DNA of 64,000 nt. Origin: Elusimicrobiota bacterium. Lineage in GTDB: Bacteria; Elusimicrobiota; UBA8919. The stretch is taken from positions 219,186 to 283,185 of the forward strand of contig JAQUMH010000001.1 in the NCBI GenBank assembly GCA_028718185.1. The letters are read 5' to 3'. The translations under genes were made by a program, and so were the position numbers. This document shows, piece by piece, positions 28,457-36,614 of this stretch (the first letter of the stretch is position 1; each line of letters begins with the position of its first letter). The notes below the pieces were generated by a model that was not told the origin of the DNA, ran no database searches, and saw only the letters and a list, made by a program, of their open reading frames with translations.

Positions 28457-30439
28457 TTACAATTTCACCCGCACCGGCAGGATAATGGTTGCAACCTCCT
28501 CCCAGTGAAGATTACGTTGTATGGCAAAAGAAGTCTCATTATGTAACATTTTATGAAAAAACTTTTCCTGTTGAAATACCAATTGTCCGGTAAATACCGT
28601 GCATTTAGGAAATTCCTGCTTTATCTTTTTGCAAAGATTAGTTGCTGTCTCAATAACATCAGTAGATGTATCATAACGGAAATCAGCAACAACCCCCAAT
28701 TTGCGGGCAAGTGTTACATATTTTTCAAGGGAACTTTTTATAGATTCCTCAAGAGTTTTCACTTCTTTTGAACCCCTGAAAGAACCCGAGTCAATTACAG
28801 CCACAGATGCAAAAATATAATTTTTATAAAGGTTCGGAAAATTTCTCACGACGGACAGAAAAATATGCACCCCGAACCCGTTATATCCGTTGACAAGCAT
28901 AATTGCAGTCATCTCTTTAGGATTAACCGGTTCCATATTTGCCGCCTGATCAGTAGGAATATTTAGCAGATATTTATCCAATTTTCGAACCGATATTTTG
29001 ACTTTTCTGTAATGTGTCCGTATAATATAACACAACACTATAAACGATGCAGTAATAAGCAGAGTCATCCAACCGCCTTCCCTGAATTTTTCAAAACTGG
29101 TTACAATAAGTATTGTTGAACAGAGTATAAAACCTGTTAGATGGACCGGAAGATGTTTTTTCCAATGTTTTTCCTTCCTGCGATTTTTTATAAAGTATTT
29201 TGACATTCCTATTTCAGAAATGGAAAACGTAAGAAATACATTAATTGAATACATAACAATCAGATTAGAAATAGAACCGCGGGTATATAATAATAGGAGA
29301 ATGGAAGCGCCACCCATAAGAAGTACACCATTGTGCATTGTAAACCGTTCTGAAAGCGAAGAAAATCTGTGCGGGAACCAGGAATCAATAGCCATATTTG
29401 ACATAACCCTCGGACCGTCAATAAATCCTGTTTGAGCAGCAACGAACAACAATGCACCTTCCGATAAAATGGTTATTAACGCCAGCCAGTAACCAAAAGA
29501 CCAATTTCCAAAAAGATTATTCGCAAGAATAGCGTTAAGCGTTTTTCCCGGAGTTGGTACTACTTTCAGCAAAAGATAACATATAAAAAGCCCACCTGCA
29601 GTAACTGCCAGTGAAACTGACATATAAAGCATAGTCCGTTTTCCAGTCTGTACTTTAGGTTCTCTCATTATCTGAAGTCCGTTTGATACTGCCTCTATTC
29701 CTGTATATGTACCTCCCCCTAATGAATATGCACGTAAAAATATACCCAACATTCCCAACCACCCGAGAGTTGAAAGACCTGAACTAAAATTATTTTTTAT
29801 TCCTGCCGTCACGGGACCAACTTCAGGCAAATGCGATATTATTCCGTAACTTATCAGAAAAATATGCGTCAAAACAAAAATTATAAATATCGGGGCAAGA
29901 ATGATTACAGATTCTTTTACCCCCCGGATATTTAACACAATTAATGTAATTATCAAAAATAAATCAAAGAAAATTTTTAAACTTTGATACTCTATAGGCA
30001 GAAAACTAAAAATAGCAGCACCGCATGAAACAATGGAAACTGTTATGGTAAGCATATAATCTACCAGCAAGGCGCATCCCGAAAGAACTCCCGCCTTCTC
30101 GCCAAGCGTGTTAGTAGCTACAATGTAACCGCCGCCGCCATGAGGAAAATGTTCAATAATACGGGAATAAGCATACGATATAACAAATACTGTAATCGCA
30201 GTTGCTAATGCCAAAAAAACCGCCAGATAGGTGTGGCTTCCCAGTGCTTTAAATGCCTCCTCCGGACCATAAGAAGAAGAAGAAAGCCCGTCAGCACCTA
30301 ATCCAATCCAGGCTAAAAGGGGAATTAACGATAATTTATGAAAAATAGAAGGGTCGTGAATGTCCCGGGGCGCACCTATTATCTTGTCTCGCACTTTTTC
30401 ATAAAATGAATGATTTTCATCTGGATTATTTTTGTCCAT
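28457..30439 (-). CDS. KimA-like potassium/amino-acid transporter (APC superfamily)
   Basis: A 660-residue membrane protein with about twelve helices. The N-terminal region (SLIPLLAWIGLGADGLSSSSYG and FPHGGGGYIVATNTLGEKAG) matches the KimA/YdaO branch of the APC superfamily, and the C-terminal about 150 residues form a USP-like cytosolic domain. Bacillus KimA imports K+ and is controlled by c-di-AMP. Here a c-di-AMP riboswitch lies directly upstream, which supports K+ uptake over amino acid transport. The ATG at 30439 is preceded by GGAGG; the open frame continues upstream through the terminator to 30520, which is not credible as coding. Confidence 0.82.
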   Translation of the reverse strand: MDKNNPDENHSFYEKVRDKIIGAPRDIHDPSIFHKLSLIPLLAWIGLGADGLSSSSYGPEEAFKALGSHTYLAVFLALATAITVFVISYAYSRIIEHFPHGGGGYIVATNTLGEKAGVLSGCALLVDYMLTITVSIVSCGAAIFSFLPIEYQSLKIFFDLFLIITLIVLNIRGVKESVIILAPIFIIFVLTHIFLISYGIISHLPEVGPVTAGIKNNFSSGLSTLGWLGMLGIFLRAYSLGGGTYTGIEAVSNGLQIMREPKVQTGKRTMLYMSVSLAVTAGGLFICYLLLKVVPTPGKTLNAILANNLFGNWSFGYWLALITILSEGALLFVAAQTGFIDGPRVMSNMAIDSWFPHRFSSLSERFTMHNGVLLMGGASILLLLYTRGSISNLIVMYSINVFLTFSISEIGMSKYFIKNRRKEKHWKKHLPVHLTGFILCSTILIVTSFEKFREGGWMTLLITASFIVLCYIIRTHYRKVKISVRKLDKYLLNIPTDQAANMEPVNPKEMTAIMLVNGYNGFGVHIFLSVVRNFPNLYKNYIFASVAVIDSGSFRGSKEVKTLEESIKSSLEKYVTLARKLGVVADFRYDTSTDVIETATNLCKKIKQEFPKCTVFTGQLVFQQEKFFHKMLHNETSFAIQRNLHWEEVATIILPVRVKL

Positions 30440-30450
30440 ATTTTTCTGCC

Positions 30451-30466
30451 TCCGAATTTGCCTGAA
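30451..30466 (-). promoter_or_regulatory. Conserved leader element TTCAGGCAAATTCGGA before kimA-like gene
   Basis: This 16-mer on the minus strand, 11 bases before the KimA-like ATG, is 15/16 identical to TTCAGGCAAATGCGGA at 38521-38536, 9 bases before the TMTC-like gene. It includes part of the ribosome binding site. Shared control is possible but untested. Confidence 0.35.
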
Positions 30467-30472
30467 TACACT

Positions 30473-30499
30473 AATAAAAAACCGCCGGAATGGCGGTTT
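30473..30499 (-). terminator. Riboswitch expression platform: intrinsic terminator
   Basis: On the minus strand AAACCGCC/GGCGGTTT forms a strong stem with loop ATTCC, followed by a U-rich run. The segment AATGGC at 30505-30510 can instead pair with GCCATT at 30489-30494 inside this stem, giving a competing antiterminator. Confidence 0.85.
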
Positions 30500-30504
30500 A
30501 ATTT

Positions 30505-30636
30505 GCCATTGCCCTTCCAAAGACCTACGAGGTTAGCTGACAGGCTCGAGCTCAGAAGTGCTCTATCCTTAATTAGGAATACGCCTCATTTTCCGGTTCC
30601 CCCGCATCCATAATTTAATGGATTTCGGCGACAATT
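30505..30636 (-). ncRNA. c-di-AMP riboswitch (ydaO-yuaA class)
   Basis: The minus strand after the purF stop shows the ydaO-yuaA consensus in order: CGCCGAAATCC, GGATGCGGGGGAACCGG, GAGGCGTATTCC, GGATAGAGCACTTCTGAGC, GTCAGCTAACCTCGTAGG and TTGGAAGGGCAATGGC. This class senses c-di-AMP and usually switches genes off when the ligand is high. A terminator follows immediately, then the KimA-like gene, which is the expected target. The riboswitch begins about 8 bases after the purF stop, so it may be read from the carAB-purF transcript or from a promoter inside the purF 3' end. Confidence 0.93.
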
Positions 30637-30643
30637 CTATAGA

Positions 30644-32041
30644 TTATTTTTCTAAATCATATTTTGATATTTTTTCTTTAGTAGGTACGGGATATTCTCC
30701 GGTAAAACATGCAGCACAGAAATTTGTCCCTTCTACAGGCATTGATTTAAGCATTCCTTCTAAACTCAAATAACACAAACTATCCACTCCAATAATTTTA
30801 GCTATTTTATTTACTGAGTTAGATGAAGCTATCAATTCTTCTTTGGTATGAAAATCAATGCCATAAAAACACGGATACCTTAGAGGAGGACAGCTTATCC
30901 GCATATGTATTTCTTTTACCCCGGCCTCCCGCAGCGTTTTCATTCTTATACGGCTGGTTGTTCCTCTGACAATAGAATCTTCAACTACGATTATTCTCTT
31001 GCCTTTTATAACTTCATTAATAGGGTTGAGTTTTAATTTCACTCCAAGATCTCTGCTGCGTTGAAACGGCTGGATGAAAGTCCTTCCTACATAATGATTC
31101 CTGATTATTCCCATTTCAAAAGGTATCTTTGATTCCTCTGAATAACCCAAAGCGGCATAATTACCCGAATCAGGAATGGATAAGACCATATCCGCTTCAA
31201 CCGGCCATTCTTTCGCTAATTGTCTTCCAAGATTTTTTCGGGCTAAATATACATTCCCACCAAAAATATTACTGTCAGGTCTGGCAAAATATATATATTC
31301 AAAAATACAAAATGAGTGACTTGCTTTAGGAAAGGGTTTGATTGATTTAACACCGTCTTTCCCGATAACAACAATTTCTCCCGGTTCAATATCCCTGATA
31401 TACTTCGCATTTGTAATGTCAAAAGCACAGGTTTCAGAAGCCACAACATATGAATCATTTATTTTCCCTAAACATAAAGGCTTAAATCCATGAGGGTCCC
31501 TTGCTGCTATTAATTTATTTTCTGATGTTAAAAATAACAATGAATATGAACCTTTTATCCGGCCTAATGCATCAATAACCCTGTCTTCAACCTTATTTTT
31601 TCTGGATCTTGCAATAAGATGGACAATTAATTCGCTATCCATTGTAGTCTGAAAAATCGCCCCGTCAGCCACTAATTTATTTTGTAACTTGCTCGTATTA
31701 ACCAAGTTTCCATTATGCGCTATTGCGATACTACCCTGCTGATAATTTACTATAAACGGTTGTGCATTTTTTATCATTGAAGACCCGGTAGTAGAATAGC
31801 GGACATGTCCTATTGAAACACTACCCGGTAAAAAATTCAACTTTCCGGGACTAAAAACTTCGTTTACTAAACCCATGCCTTTTTGACATGTAATTTTTCC
31901 TTCATTTAATACGGCAATTCCCGCACTCTCCTGACCACGGTGCTGAAGCGAATATAACCCTAAATAGGTAAGTTCATACGCATTTTTATGCCCGAATATT
32001 CCAAAAATTCCACACGCTTCTTTAGGATAATGATTATTCAT
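30644..32041 (-). CDS. purF: Amidophosphoribosyltransferase
   Basis: A 465-residue PurF, the first committed enzyme of purine synthesis, making phosphoribosylamine from PRPP and glutamine. A nine-residue propeptide (MNNHYPKEA) precedes the N-terminal nucleophile Cys10 of CGIFGIFG. The PRPP loop VVEDSIVRGTTSR is present. Conserved cysteines (CACFTGEYP near the end) suggest the Fe-S form. It starts 27 bp after carB, joining purine and pyrimidine entry steps in one probable transcript. Confidence 0.96.
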   Translation of the reverse strand: MNNHYPKEACGIFGIFGHKNAYELTYLGLYSLQHRGQESAGIAVLNEGKITCQKGMGLVNEVFSPGKLNFLPGSVSIGHVRYSTTGSSMIKNAQPFIVNYQQGSIAIAHNGNLVNTSKLQNKLVADGAIFQTTMDSELIVHLIARSRKNKVEDRVIDALGRIKGSYSLLFLTSENKLIAARDPHGFKPLCLGKINDSYVVASETCAFDITNAKYIRDIEPGEIVVIGKDGVKSIKPFPKASHSFCIFEYIYFARPDSNIFGGNVYLARKNLGRQLAKEWPVEADMVLSIPDSGNYAALGYSEESKIPFEMGIIRNHYVGRTFIQPFQRSRDLGVKLKLNPINEVIKGKRIIVVEDSIVRGTTSRIRMKTLREAGVKEIHMRISCPPLRYPCFYGIDFHTKEELIASSNSVNKIAKIIGVDSLCYLSLEGMLKSMPVEGTNFCAACFTGEYPVPTKEKISKYDLEK

Positions 32042-32068: not shown

Positions 32069-35000
32069 TTATCTCCAATATTGTTGAATCGGTTTAATAT
32101 GAGGCTTTTTATGTCTGAGCGATTTAATTGCTTCTAATGAAACTGTCGCTGCAGCAATCGTTGTAATTATAGGTACATTATAAGAAATCGCAGTTGTTCT
32201 TATTATACGACCGTCAGACACTGCCATTTTCTTCCCGCTTGGTATATCTATAATAAGAGACATTTTTCCGCCTTTTATATAATTTACAATATTGGGACTC
32301 CCTTCACTTACTTTTTTTACATATTTCACTTTTATATTTTTAGATTCAAGATATTCTGCTGTTCCGGTTGTTGCTACAATATCAAAACCTAATTCCTCAA
32401 ACCCTTTCGCAACATGTAAAATCTTTTCTTTTTCATTTCTCCTGACGCTTACAAAAACTGTACCTTCTTTCGGTAATGGTGTTCCTGCCGCTATCTGGGA
32501 TTTTGCAAATGCTATTTCATATAAAAAATCTATCCCCATTACTTCTCCTGTTGAACGCATTTCAGGACCAAGAACAGTGTCAGTTCCGATAAACCTGTTA
32601 AAAGGTAAAACAGATTCTTTAATCGCAAAATAATCCATCTTCTTCAGTTTATTATGATAAATTGATAATTTCTTATTAATTATTGCTGAAACCGCCAATT
32701 TAACAAGTGAAACACCTGTTGCTTTGGATACAAATGGAACTGTCCTTGATGCTCTAGGGTTAACTTCAAGAATAAAAACTTTCCCATCTTTAATAGCAAA
32801 CTGAATATTTAAAAGTCCTTTTACATTTAGTGCTTTTGCTGACTTTTTAGTATAATCTATAATTGTATTTATAATTTTTGGCTTTAATGTTCGCGGTGGG
32901 ATTGCACAGGCGCTGTCACCGGAATGAATACCTGCCTGTTCAATATGTTCGAGGATTCCACCGATAAAAGTATCTTTTCCGTCACAAACTGCATCAACAT
33001 CAACTTCAATGGCGTTCTGTAAAAATTTATCTATAAAAATAGGGTGCTCAGGTGAAACATCCGTCGCTATCTTAACATATTTCTCGAGAGATTGATTATC
33101 ATATGCTACTTCCATCGCTCTTCCACCTAAAACATATGAGGGTCTTATAAGTACAGGATAACCGATTTTTTCTACAATTTTTATTGCTTCTTTAAGATTA
33201 TTTGCACATCCCCATAACGGAACAGGTATATTTAACCTCTTCAATAACTTACCGAATTTTACCCTGTCTTCTGCTAAATCAATATTATCAGGAGAAGTAC
33301 CAATAATATTCACACCGGCTTCTTTTAATCTAAGTGCTAAATTAAGAGGTGTCTGACCGCCAAACTGGATGATAACACCTTCTGGTTTTTCTCTTTCTAC
33401 GATATTCATAACATCTTCGAAAGTTAACGGTTCAAAATAAAGTTTATCGGATATATCATAATCAGTTGAAACCGTCTCAGGATTACAATTAACCATTATA
33501 GTTTCAAACCCCAATTCTCTTAAAGCAAAAACAGAATGAACACAGCAGTAATCAAATTCTATCCCCTGCCCGATTCTATTCGGTCCCCCTCCTAAAATCA
33601 TAATCTTCTTTTTTTTCTTGCTTCTTACTTCTTGCTTTTTTTCTCCTATATCATCATTTTCAGATTCATACGTTGAATAAAAATACGGCGTGGATGCCTC
33701 GAATTCACCGGCACAGGTATCTATCAGTTTATATTTCGGTGTAATCTTGAATTTTAATCTTAATTTTTTAATCTCATACTCGCTTCTATCTGTTAAATAC
33801 CCGATTTGTCTATCGGAAAACCCATACTCCTTTGCTTTCCTTAAAAGAAAAGGGCTTAGATTTTCCTCCAAACCAATTTCCTCCCCTAAATCAACAATTT
33901 CTTTTATCTGGTAAATGAACCACTTGTCAATTTTTGAAAGTTTTGATATTTTATCAACGCTAAAACCCAGCTGCAGCGCATAACCTATGTTAAATATTCT
34001 ATCACAATTCGGAACTTTCAGTTTGTCTGTAACCTGTTCAATATAATTTATTTTTTCTATAGATTTATCAGAATAATTACTCAGTTTATCTACTATCTGA
34101 ACCTGACCTAAACCATCAGCATTCATTCCGTAACGGCCGATTTCAAGACCTCTAATTGCTTTCTGCAAAGCTTCTTTAAAGTTCCTCCCAATTGCCATTA
34201 CTTCCCCGACCGATTTCATCGCCGTATTCAGGGTTTGGTCTGCTTCAAGAAACTTTTCAAATGTGAAACGAGGGATTTTAACAACAACATAATCAATCGC
34301 CGGTTCGAAAGAAGCAGGAGTTTTTTTAGTTATATCATTTTTTATTTCATCAAGAGTATACCCGACTGCAAGTTTTGCCGCAATCTTAGCAATCGGAAAT
34401 CCCGTCGCTTTTGATGCAAGCGCAGACGACCGGGAAACCCGTGGATTCATTTCAATAACAACAAGTCTTCCGGTATCCGGATTAACAGCAAACTGAACAT
34501 TACTCCCTCCGGTATCAACACCTATTGACCTCATAATCGTTATTGATGCATCACGAAGTTTTTGATATTCTTTATCCGTCAATGTCTGCGCCGGCGCTAC
34601 GGTAATTGAATCGCCGGTATGTATGCCCATCGGGTCAAAATTTTCTATAGGACATACAATTACAACATTGTCGTTCTTGTCTCGCATCACTTCAAGCTCA
34701 TATTCTTTCCATCCAATCAGCGATTCTTCAATTAAAATTTTATTTACGGGACTGGCAGCAAGCCCCCACTTAACTTTTTCTTTAAATTCACTTTCTTTAT
34801 AACATATCGAACCACCGACACCGCCTAAAGTAAAAGACGGTCTTATAATGTTAGGATATCCCACTTTTTTCACAATTTTTAACGCTTCTTTTACACTCTT
34901 TGCATATCCTGATTTTGGGACTTCAAGACCTGCTTCTATCATTGTTTTTTTAAAAAGAAACCTGTCTTCTGCTTTTTTTATTGCTTCATATCTTGCACCT

Positions 35001-35347
35001 ATTAGTTCCACACCATATTTTTTCAATATTCCTTTTTCGTAAAGTTCAACCGAAAGATTCAGAGCTGTTTGCCCGCCAAGTGTGGGAAGAAGCGCATCCG
35101 GTCTTTCTTTCCTAATTATCTCTTCCAAAAATTCTTTTGTCAGGGGTTCAATATAAGTTTTATCCGAAAATTCCGGGTCGGTCATAATTGTCGCGGGATT
35201 TGAGTTCACAAGGATAATTTTATATCCTTCTTCTTTTAACGCCCGGCAGCCCTGAGTCCCTGAATAATCAAATTCGCATGCCTGTCCTATTACAATCGGA
35301 CCGGAACCTATAATAAGTATTTTTTTAATATCATTTCTTCTTGGCAT
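32069..35347 (-). CDS. carB: Carbamoyl-phosphate synthase large subunit
   Basis: A 1092-residue CarB with two ATP-grasp halves ([13 protein letters not shown] and [19 protein letters not shown]), an oligomerisation region, and a C-terminal MGS-like regulatory domain. It makes carbamoyl phosphate for pyrimidines and arginine from bicarbonate, ammonia and two ATP. The linker before the second half ([17 protein letters not shown]) carries an unusual [13 protein letters not shown] run encoded by a 7-bp G/A-rich minisatellite. It overlaps the carA stop by 17 bp. Confidence 0.97.
33617..33643. repeat. 7-bp minisatellite inside carB (CTTCTTA/CTTCTTG type)
   Basis: The plus strand shows CTTGCTTCTTACTTCTTGC followed by a T tract. 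The same repeat sequence occurs at 42608-42633 inside the gltB-like gene and at 43109-43141 just upstream of it. In carB it encodes the Lys/Gln/Ser-rich interdomain linker. Confidence 0.75.
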
Positions 35348-36458
35348 ATTTTTTTACCATACCGGCAAATTTTTCAAACAAATAACCGGTATCGTGCGGA
35401 CCCGGTGACGCTTCAGGATGAAACTGAACAGAAAAAACAGGTAATTTTTTATGTTCCATACCTTCAAGTGTTCCGTCGTTTAAATTCATATACGTAGGAA
35501 TAACATCATCAAGTGTTTTCAAATCCACGGCAAAATTGTGGTTTTCTGCAGATATTTCAATACGACTTGTCTTTAAATTTTTTATAGGCTGGTTTGAACC
35601 GTGATGCCCGAATTTTAATTTATATGTTTTTCCACCCATAGCAAGCCCAAGAATCTGGTGACCGAGGCAGATGCCGAATAAAGGAAGTCCGATGTCCGAT
35701 GTCCGATGTCCGATGTCTGAAATTAACTTCTTTACTGTTTCTATTGCATATGTGACACCTTCGGGATCGCCGGGACCGTTTGAAAGAAGAATGCCTTTGG
35801 GTTTCAATGATAATATTTTTTCAAAAGATGTGTTTGCAGGGACGACTACCGGATTCAGATTAACATTACACAATGACCTCAAAATATTTGTTTTTACTCC
35901 GAAATCCATAACAACAACAGAAAGAAATTGAGAAACTGGGAAATTGGGAAATTGAGAAAACTTGTGAACCTTTTGACAGGTGACTTCTTTTACAAGGTCT
36001 CTGCCGACAATATCAGGAGCTGATTTTAACTTTCTTAACAACAGTTCTTTTTTATCATTAACTGTTGAAATAATACCTTTCATTGCCCCTTTTTCCCTTA
36101 TGTGTTTTACGATACATCTCGTATCAACACCTTCTATTCCGATAATATGGTTTTCTTTAAAGTACTTATCTAATGATTTGTCTGCCCGCCAATTTGAGTA
36201 TATTTTAGAATATTCTTTTACGATAAAACCTGATACATGAGGACTTTCACTCTCCATATCTTCACTATTTATACCATAATTACCGATATGAGGATAAGTC
36301 ATAGTTACAATTTGACCTTTATAGGAAGGATCAGTTAAAATTTCCTGATAGCCGGTATGTGAAGTGTTAAATACTACTTCGCCAATAGTTTCGCCTTCAT
36401 AACCAAACGAATTTCCGCTAAACATTAAACCATCTTCAAGTAAAACTATCGCTTTCAT
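35331..36458 (-). CDS. carA: Carbamoyl-phosphate synthase small subunit
   Basis: A 375-residue CarA, the glutaminase subunit supplying ammonia to CarB. The N-terminal CPSase domain includes [20 protein letters not shown]; the C-terminal GATase has the nucleophile motif FGICLGHQ and the [11 protein letters not shown] His-Glu pair. Two minisatellite-encoded segments are present: [11 protein letters not shown] in the interdomain linker and [11 protein letters not shown] 3 residues before the FGICLGHQ motif. The second is an insertion relative to the usual family spacing. A promoter and a probable attenuator lie upstream. Confidence 0.96.
35688..35719. repeat. 7-bp minisatellite in the carA glutaminase domain
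   Basis: Four and a half tandem copies of TCCGATG (plus strand). Three units equal 21 bp, so the frame is kept while the peptide repeats as SDIGHRT. Confidence 0.85.
35924..35960. repeat. 8-bp minisatellite in the carA interdomain linker
   Basis: About four tandem units of GAAATTGA/GAAACTGG/GAAATTGG (plus strand). It encodes the Phe/Pro/Gln-rich linker between the two CarA domains. Confidence 0.8.
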
Positions 36459-36584: not shown

Positions 36585-36614
36585 ATTATACCCTATTTTA
36601 TTACAGCTTGTCAA
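36585..36614 (-). promoter_or_regulatory. Promoter of the carA-carB-purF run
   Basis: Perfect TTGACA (36609-36614) and TATAAT (36585-36590) on the minus strand, 18 bp apart. It gives a leader of about 120 bases that contains the attenuator-like hairpin. Confidence 0.8.

Follow-up and report, generated by a model that had tools for sequence, protein, structure and literature searches.

In the leaders of Bacillus subtilis kimA (ydaO) and of the Bacillus thuringiensis kdp operon, c-di-AMP promotes transcription termination (PMC6488665, PMC5575661). With the B. thuringiensis kdpFABC riboswitch, the ligand raises termination in vitro from 27% to 63%, and riboswitch-controlled kdp operons are seemingly confined to Bacillales (PMC6488665). 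For Elusimicrobia, our literature search returned nothing on either c-di-AMP riboswitches or diadenylate cyclases. Here we analyse a locus of an Elusimicrobiota genome, lying in a window of 64,000 nucleotides (the whole stretch of DNA under study), at which a ydaO-class c-di-AMP riboswitch very probably turns off a KimA-type potassium importer through early transcription termination. The locus resembles the B. subtilis ydaO (kimA) leader in its RF00379 aptamer, its KimA-type gene, the terminator placed directly after the aptamer and the OFF response to be expected; it differs in its position, 3 nt downstream of purF at the end of a carAB-purF operon, and in belonging to a diderm lineage. With the B. 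thuringiensis kdpFABC riboswitch it would share the c-di-AMP-promoted intrinsic termination before a potassium uptake system that we propose here, whereas the transporter is a different one. The type of switch is already known; its host lineage is little studied, and its spacing behind a nucleotide-synthesis operon is unusually tight.

A full-length RF00379 aptamer

Using cmscan, we found on the minus strand a full-length match to RF00379, the c-di-AMP/ydaO riboswitch family, at 30640-30507 (model positions 1-134 of 134). Its score of 79.9 bits, against a family gathering score of 38 bits, bears out the original prediction of a ydaO-type riboswitch. The E-value is 4.8e-19 on 501 local bases and 6.2e-17 on the whole window. 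No other Rfam match occurs in the window, and the 3.03 Mb genome has a single RF00379 copy. Matches to Atu_C9 and EGFOA-assoc-1 on the same stretch were rejected, their Rfam scores lying far below gathering.

30507..30640, minus strand: c-di-AMP (ydaO/yuaA) riboswitch aptamer, RF00379, full length (cmscan, 79.9 bits)
30627..30630, minus strand: 5' strand of P1, partner 30525-30522, outermost pair a C-C mismatch (columns of the cmscan alignment)

In the cmscan alignment, 25 of the 26 modelled pairs are standard, the pseudoknot counted, and the exception is the outermost C-C pair of P1, a short helix that otherwise consists of 3 pairs, one of them G-U. The strongly conserved consensus letters are kept at 45 of 56 positions, and the changes within the aptamer helices are compensated. 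The aptamer is real and appears intact, with a short P1; the minus-strand RNA can be assigned to the established RF00379 class, with c-di-AMP as its presumed ligand.

Terminator and candidate antiterminator

The element also has the feature of an expression platform, a terminator directly after the aptamer on the same strand, and with it spans about 30640-30476 (-).

30505..30510, minus strand: AAUGGC in the tail of the aptamer, candidate strand of an antiterminator, partner 30494-30489 (folding with the terminator penalised)
30479..30499, minus strand: intrinsic terminator hairpin AAACCGCC-AUUCC-GGCGGUUU, then UUUAUU from 30478 downwards (terminator scan)
30489..30494, minus strand: GCCAUU, candidate antiterminator partner, overlapping the 5' arm and loop of the terminator (folding)
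30482..30487, minus strand: CGGCGG in the 3' arm of the terminator, may pair with UCGCCG at 30631-30626 (lowest-energy fold without the terminator)
30449..30453, minus strand: GGAGG, resembling a Shine-Dalgarno sequence, 9 nt upstream of the ATG at 30439 (sequence)

The hairpin at 30499-30479 comprises 8 pairs and a loop of 5 (about -12.2 kcal/mol) and is followed by the T run TTTATT; as anticipated for this site, it is a strong terminator, the strongest terminator-like site that the scan detected across the surrounding 11 kb. The same layout of aptamer and then terminator occurs in four other members of the phylum (L035, L041, L043 and L044). The GGAGG lies far downstream of the hairpin, which points to termination as the natural mode of control.

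The predicted pairing of AATGGC with GCCATT can form (30510-30505 with 30494-30489), but pairing of this strength is equalled by 180 of 2000 shuffled tails (9%). When folds of the growing transcript were followed, the antiterminator dominated at 3' ends 30490-30482 and the terminator from 30480 on. In full-length folds, compared by means of soft penalties on the terminator, the terminator fold is favoured over the best terminator-penalised fold by only 0.6 kcal/mol, and a gap as small is reached by 58 of 1000 shuffled upstream sequences (6%) and by 157 of 1000 random hairpins (16%). The AAUGGC/GCCAUU antiterminator is thus plausible, at a level not above chance. The best terminator-penalised fold, a possible ligand-free alternative, also pairs UCGCCG (30631-30626), which includes the 5' strand of P1, with CGGCGG (30487-30482); with this pairing, aptamer P1 and antiterminator would exclude each other.

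The KimA-like product and the c-di-AMP genes

28457..30439, minus strand: kimA-like gene, predicted potassium importer, 660 aa from the ATG (KimA of PDB 6s3k/8b70/8b71, E 1.7e-58; PF13520, E 2.7e-23)

A phmmer search returned KimA as the only solved-structure relative of the 660-aa product (residues 17-490, across the membrane domain), whose Pfam family is AA_permease_2 (PF13520). The likeness to B. subtilis KimA (PDB 6s3k, 8b70, 8b71) lies in the sequence family and in the K+-site residues, although the window protein is distant. With residue roles and numbering taken from PMC10284832 (the K+ site, Tyr118/Asn237 and the c-di-AMP pocket), the K+-coordinating Asp36, Tyr43, Thr230 and Tyr377 are unchanged in the alignment, and Tyr118 and Asn237, which transmit inhibition, are conserved as well. 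The c-di-AMP pocket of the cytosolic domain retains His579, Asn580 and Trp592, while Gln581 is replaced by Glu, Ser582 by Thr and Arg337 by His. The protein therefore looks KimA-like, as had been claimed, and it likely transports potassium; because of the changes at Arg337, Gln581 and Ser582, its direct inhibition by c-di-AMP is uncertain.

Two Candidatus Aminicenantes genomes encode the closest KimA proteins (75% and 71%), followed by G005, a genome of the same family as ours (66%). The KimA tree places the window protein, fully supported, as sister to the Aminicenantes pair; on this tree, the presence of the aptamer requires at least four changes. In the Aminicenantes pair and in G005, no RF00379 match was found near kimA or elsewhere in the genome.

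The genome encodes a 263-aa CdaA-type diadenylate cyclase with CdaA_N and DAC domains (G000:C1:174500-174856; PF02457, E 2e-41), which answers the question, raised with the original prediction, of whether a DisA or CdaA homologue is present. Neither of the two outcomes named beforehand as refuting the prediction, an RF00379 score below threshold or a genome lacking a diadenylate cyclase, was found. The genome also encodes a 489-aa PgpH-type phosphodiesterase (7TM-HD domain PF07698, E 3.5e-27) and three TrkA_C domains, one of them within an antiporter-like ORF. By eye, the ORF adjoining the PgpH-type gene resembles PhoH. Just downstream of kimA, and with its own promoter-like site (28377-28349), lies a gene for BamA with POTRA repeats, which indicates a diderm cell, in agreement with the host type first supposed. 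Synthase, phosphodiesterase, riboswitch and importer would make up a complete c-di-AMP/K+ gene circuit in an uncultured diderm lineage, where work on c-di-AMP is sparse.

The proposed switch and its alternatives

When potassium is plentiful, c-di-AMP made by CdaA would bind the aptamer. In the bound state, P1 and the pseudoknot would be held, leaving neither the aptamer tail nor the 5' strand of P1 available for pairing with the terminator; the 30499-30479 hairpin would then form and RNA polymerase would halt before kimA. At low c-di-AMP, AAUGGC would pair with GCCAUU, the 5' strand of P1 may pair with the 3' arm of the terminator, and kimA would be transcribed. As in Bacillus, c-di-AMP may additionally inhibit the KimA protein itself. 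The original idea that c-di-AMP shuts off potassium uptake is supported by the genes and the aptamer found here, and the OFF direction for uptake would follow by analogy with Bacillus (PMC6488665, PMC5575661).

The hairpin could instead merely end the carAB-purF operon, the aptamer being decayed or uncoupled and kimA independent of c-di-AMP. No other strong terminator-like site lies at the operon end, the antiterminator does not exceed chance and close kimA homologues lack the aptamer; however, the aptamer score is the second best of the 16 in the phylum and its pairs are compensated, which is unlike decay, and no sigma-70-like promoter was found between the terminator and the start of kimA. 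We regard this explanation as very unlikely. That the ydaO fold has here changed its specificity and binds a ligand other than c-di-AMP is extremely improbable: 11 conserved consensus letters deviate, two of them within the unpaired GUGAAU segment, but the same place varies in other aptamers of the phylum, the crystallised ydaO RNA itself has GCGAAU at this position (PMC5393176), and genes for both synthesis and breakdown of c-di-AMP are present in the genome.

A further alternative concerns the target only and leaves the switch as it is. The transporter might carry an amino acid or an osmolyte, in which case osmolyte rather than potassium uptake would be controlled, as its Pfam placement in a broad amino acid permease superfamily would allow. 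With KimA the only solved sequence matched, and the K+-coordinating residues conserved, we consider this unlikely.

Placement behind carA-carB-purF

Upstream of the ydaO-class switch, in the direction of transcription, lie the genes of a nucleotide-synthesis operon.

36585..36614, minus strand: perfect sigma-70-type promoter TTGACA-18-TATAAT before carA (12/12 matches)
35331..36458, minus strand: carA, first operon gene (ORF; G001)
32069..35347, minus strand: carB, same operon, upstream of the aptamer (ORF; carA-carB-purF order as in G001)
30644..32041, minus strand: purF, immediately upstream of the aptamer (TIGR01134, E 1.8e-160)

The three genes are closely spaced or overlapping. The purF stop codon (30646-30644) is separated from the aptamer (from 30640) by 3 nt, and not by the 8 bases originally given. 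In G001, a genome of the same family, carA, carB and purF follow in the same order and kimA is not behind them. Contamination was rejected as an explanation, the locus lying on a 970 kb contig and carA-carB-purF being common to this genome and G001. The absence of kimA behind the G001 operon and of the aptamer from the closest KimA genes suggest that a cassette of aptamer, terminator and kimA was probably joined behind an older carA-carB-purF operon.

On the minus strand, we saw no sigma-70-like promoter in 30640-30900, nor between the terminator and the start of kimA; promoter-like matches around the locus are no commoner than in shuffled sequences. The promoter before carA is a candidate start for transcription into the riboswitch, and the final part of purF may contain a promoter of another type. 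With that carA promoter and none of the sigma-70 kind in 30640-30900, the riboswitch may act between cistrons. Somewhat short of even confidence, we suggest that the cassette was joined without a promoter of its own, and that c-di-AMP would set whether the transcript ends after purF or reads through into the potassium importer. If this is true, potassium uptake would be tied to pyrimidine and purine synthesis; the inter-cistronic placement would also give an inexpensive way of asking whether a housekeeping operon can gain a conditional gene by means of a riboswitch.

At the other end of the operon, the carA leader (36585-36459, minus strand) contains a strong hairpin with a T run behind it (AGTCTTCAAT...ATTGAAGGCTTTTTT; z-score -2.25). 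No Rfam family was found for this leader; its hairpin, behind the perfect sigma-70 promoter, is a candidate for attenuating carAB-purF transcription.

The aptamer across the phylum

RF00379 is absent from all 59 nearest relatives, which had suggested an aptamer unique to the source genome; this was overturned by the phylum-wide search, in which 16 of 341 genomes carry it. Diderm examples, described beforehand as fewer than those of Firmicutes, are accordingly not exceptional. A DAC domain is encoded by 16/16 carriers and by 221/341 genomes overall, counts in which the species are not independent.

KimA follows the aptamer in six of the 16 carriers (the window, L035, L037, L039, L043 and L045). 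In five others, a distant AA_permease_2 family takes its place, identified through Pfam in L038, L042 and L044 and through resemblance in L036 and L040. Its members have about 670-680 aa and resemble KimA weakly, and that of L038 has no solved-structure match; this family is a candidate for a second c-di-AMP-controlled transporter family of the phylum. TrkH lies behind the aptamer in one genome (L041) and a CitMHS transporter in another (L048); in the latter, the RF00379 match before the CitMHS-type gene (L048:3023-3165) is divergent, at 48.5 bits. A BBP2 porin lies behind the aptamer in the remaining three, which are species of one genus (L046:2658-4350, L047:2735-4416 and L049:3052-4747), which possibly places a diderm-specific potassium porin under c-di-AMP control. 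In L046, the aptamer is followed by kdpABC in addition to the BBP2 outer-membrane porin, an apparent exception to the restriction of riboswitch-controlled kdp operons to Bacillales.

Judged from these gene neighbourhoods, the aptamer targets of the phylum appear close to the K+/osmolarity regulon expected of the ydaO class: RNA control before potassium uptake genes would recur across the phylum, with an outer-membrane porin among its targets. In L037:1572-5805 and L039:1211-5358, the aptamer stands between two tandem copies of kimA, an arrangement in which the switch seems to act on the second copy alone.
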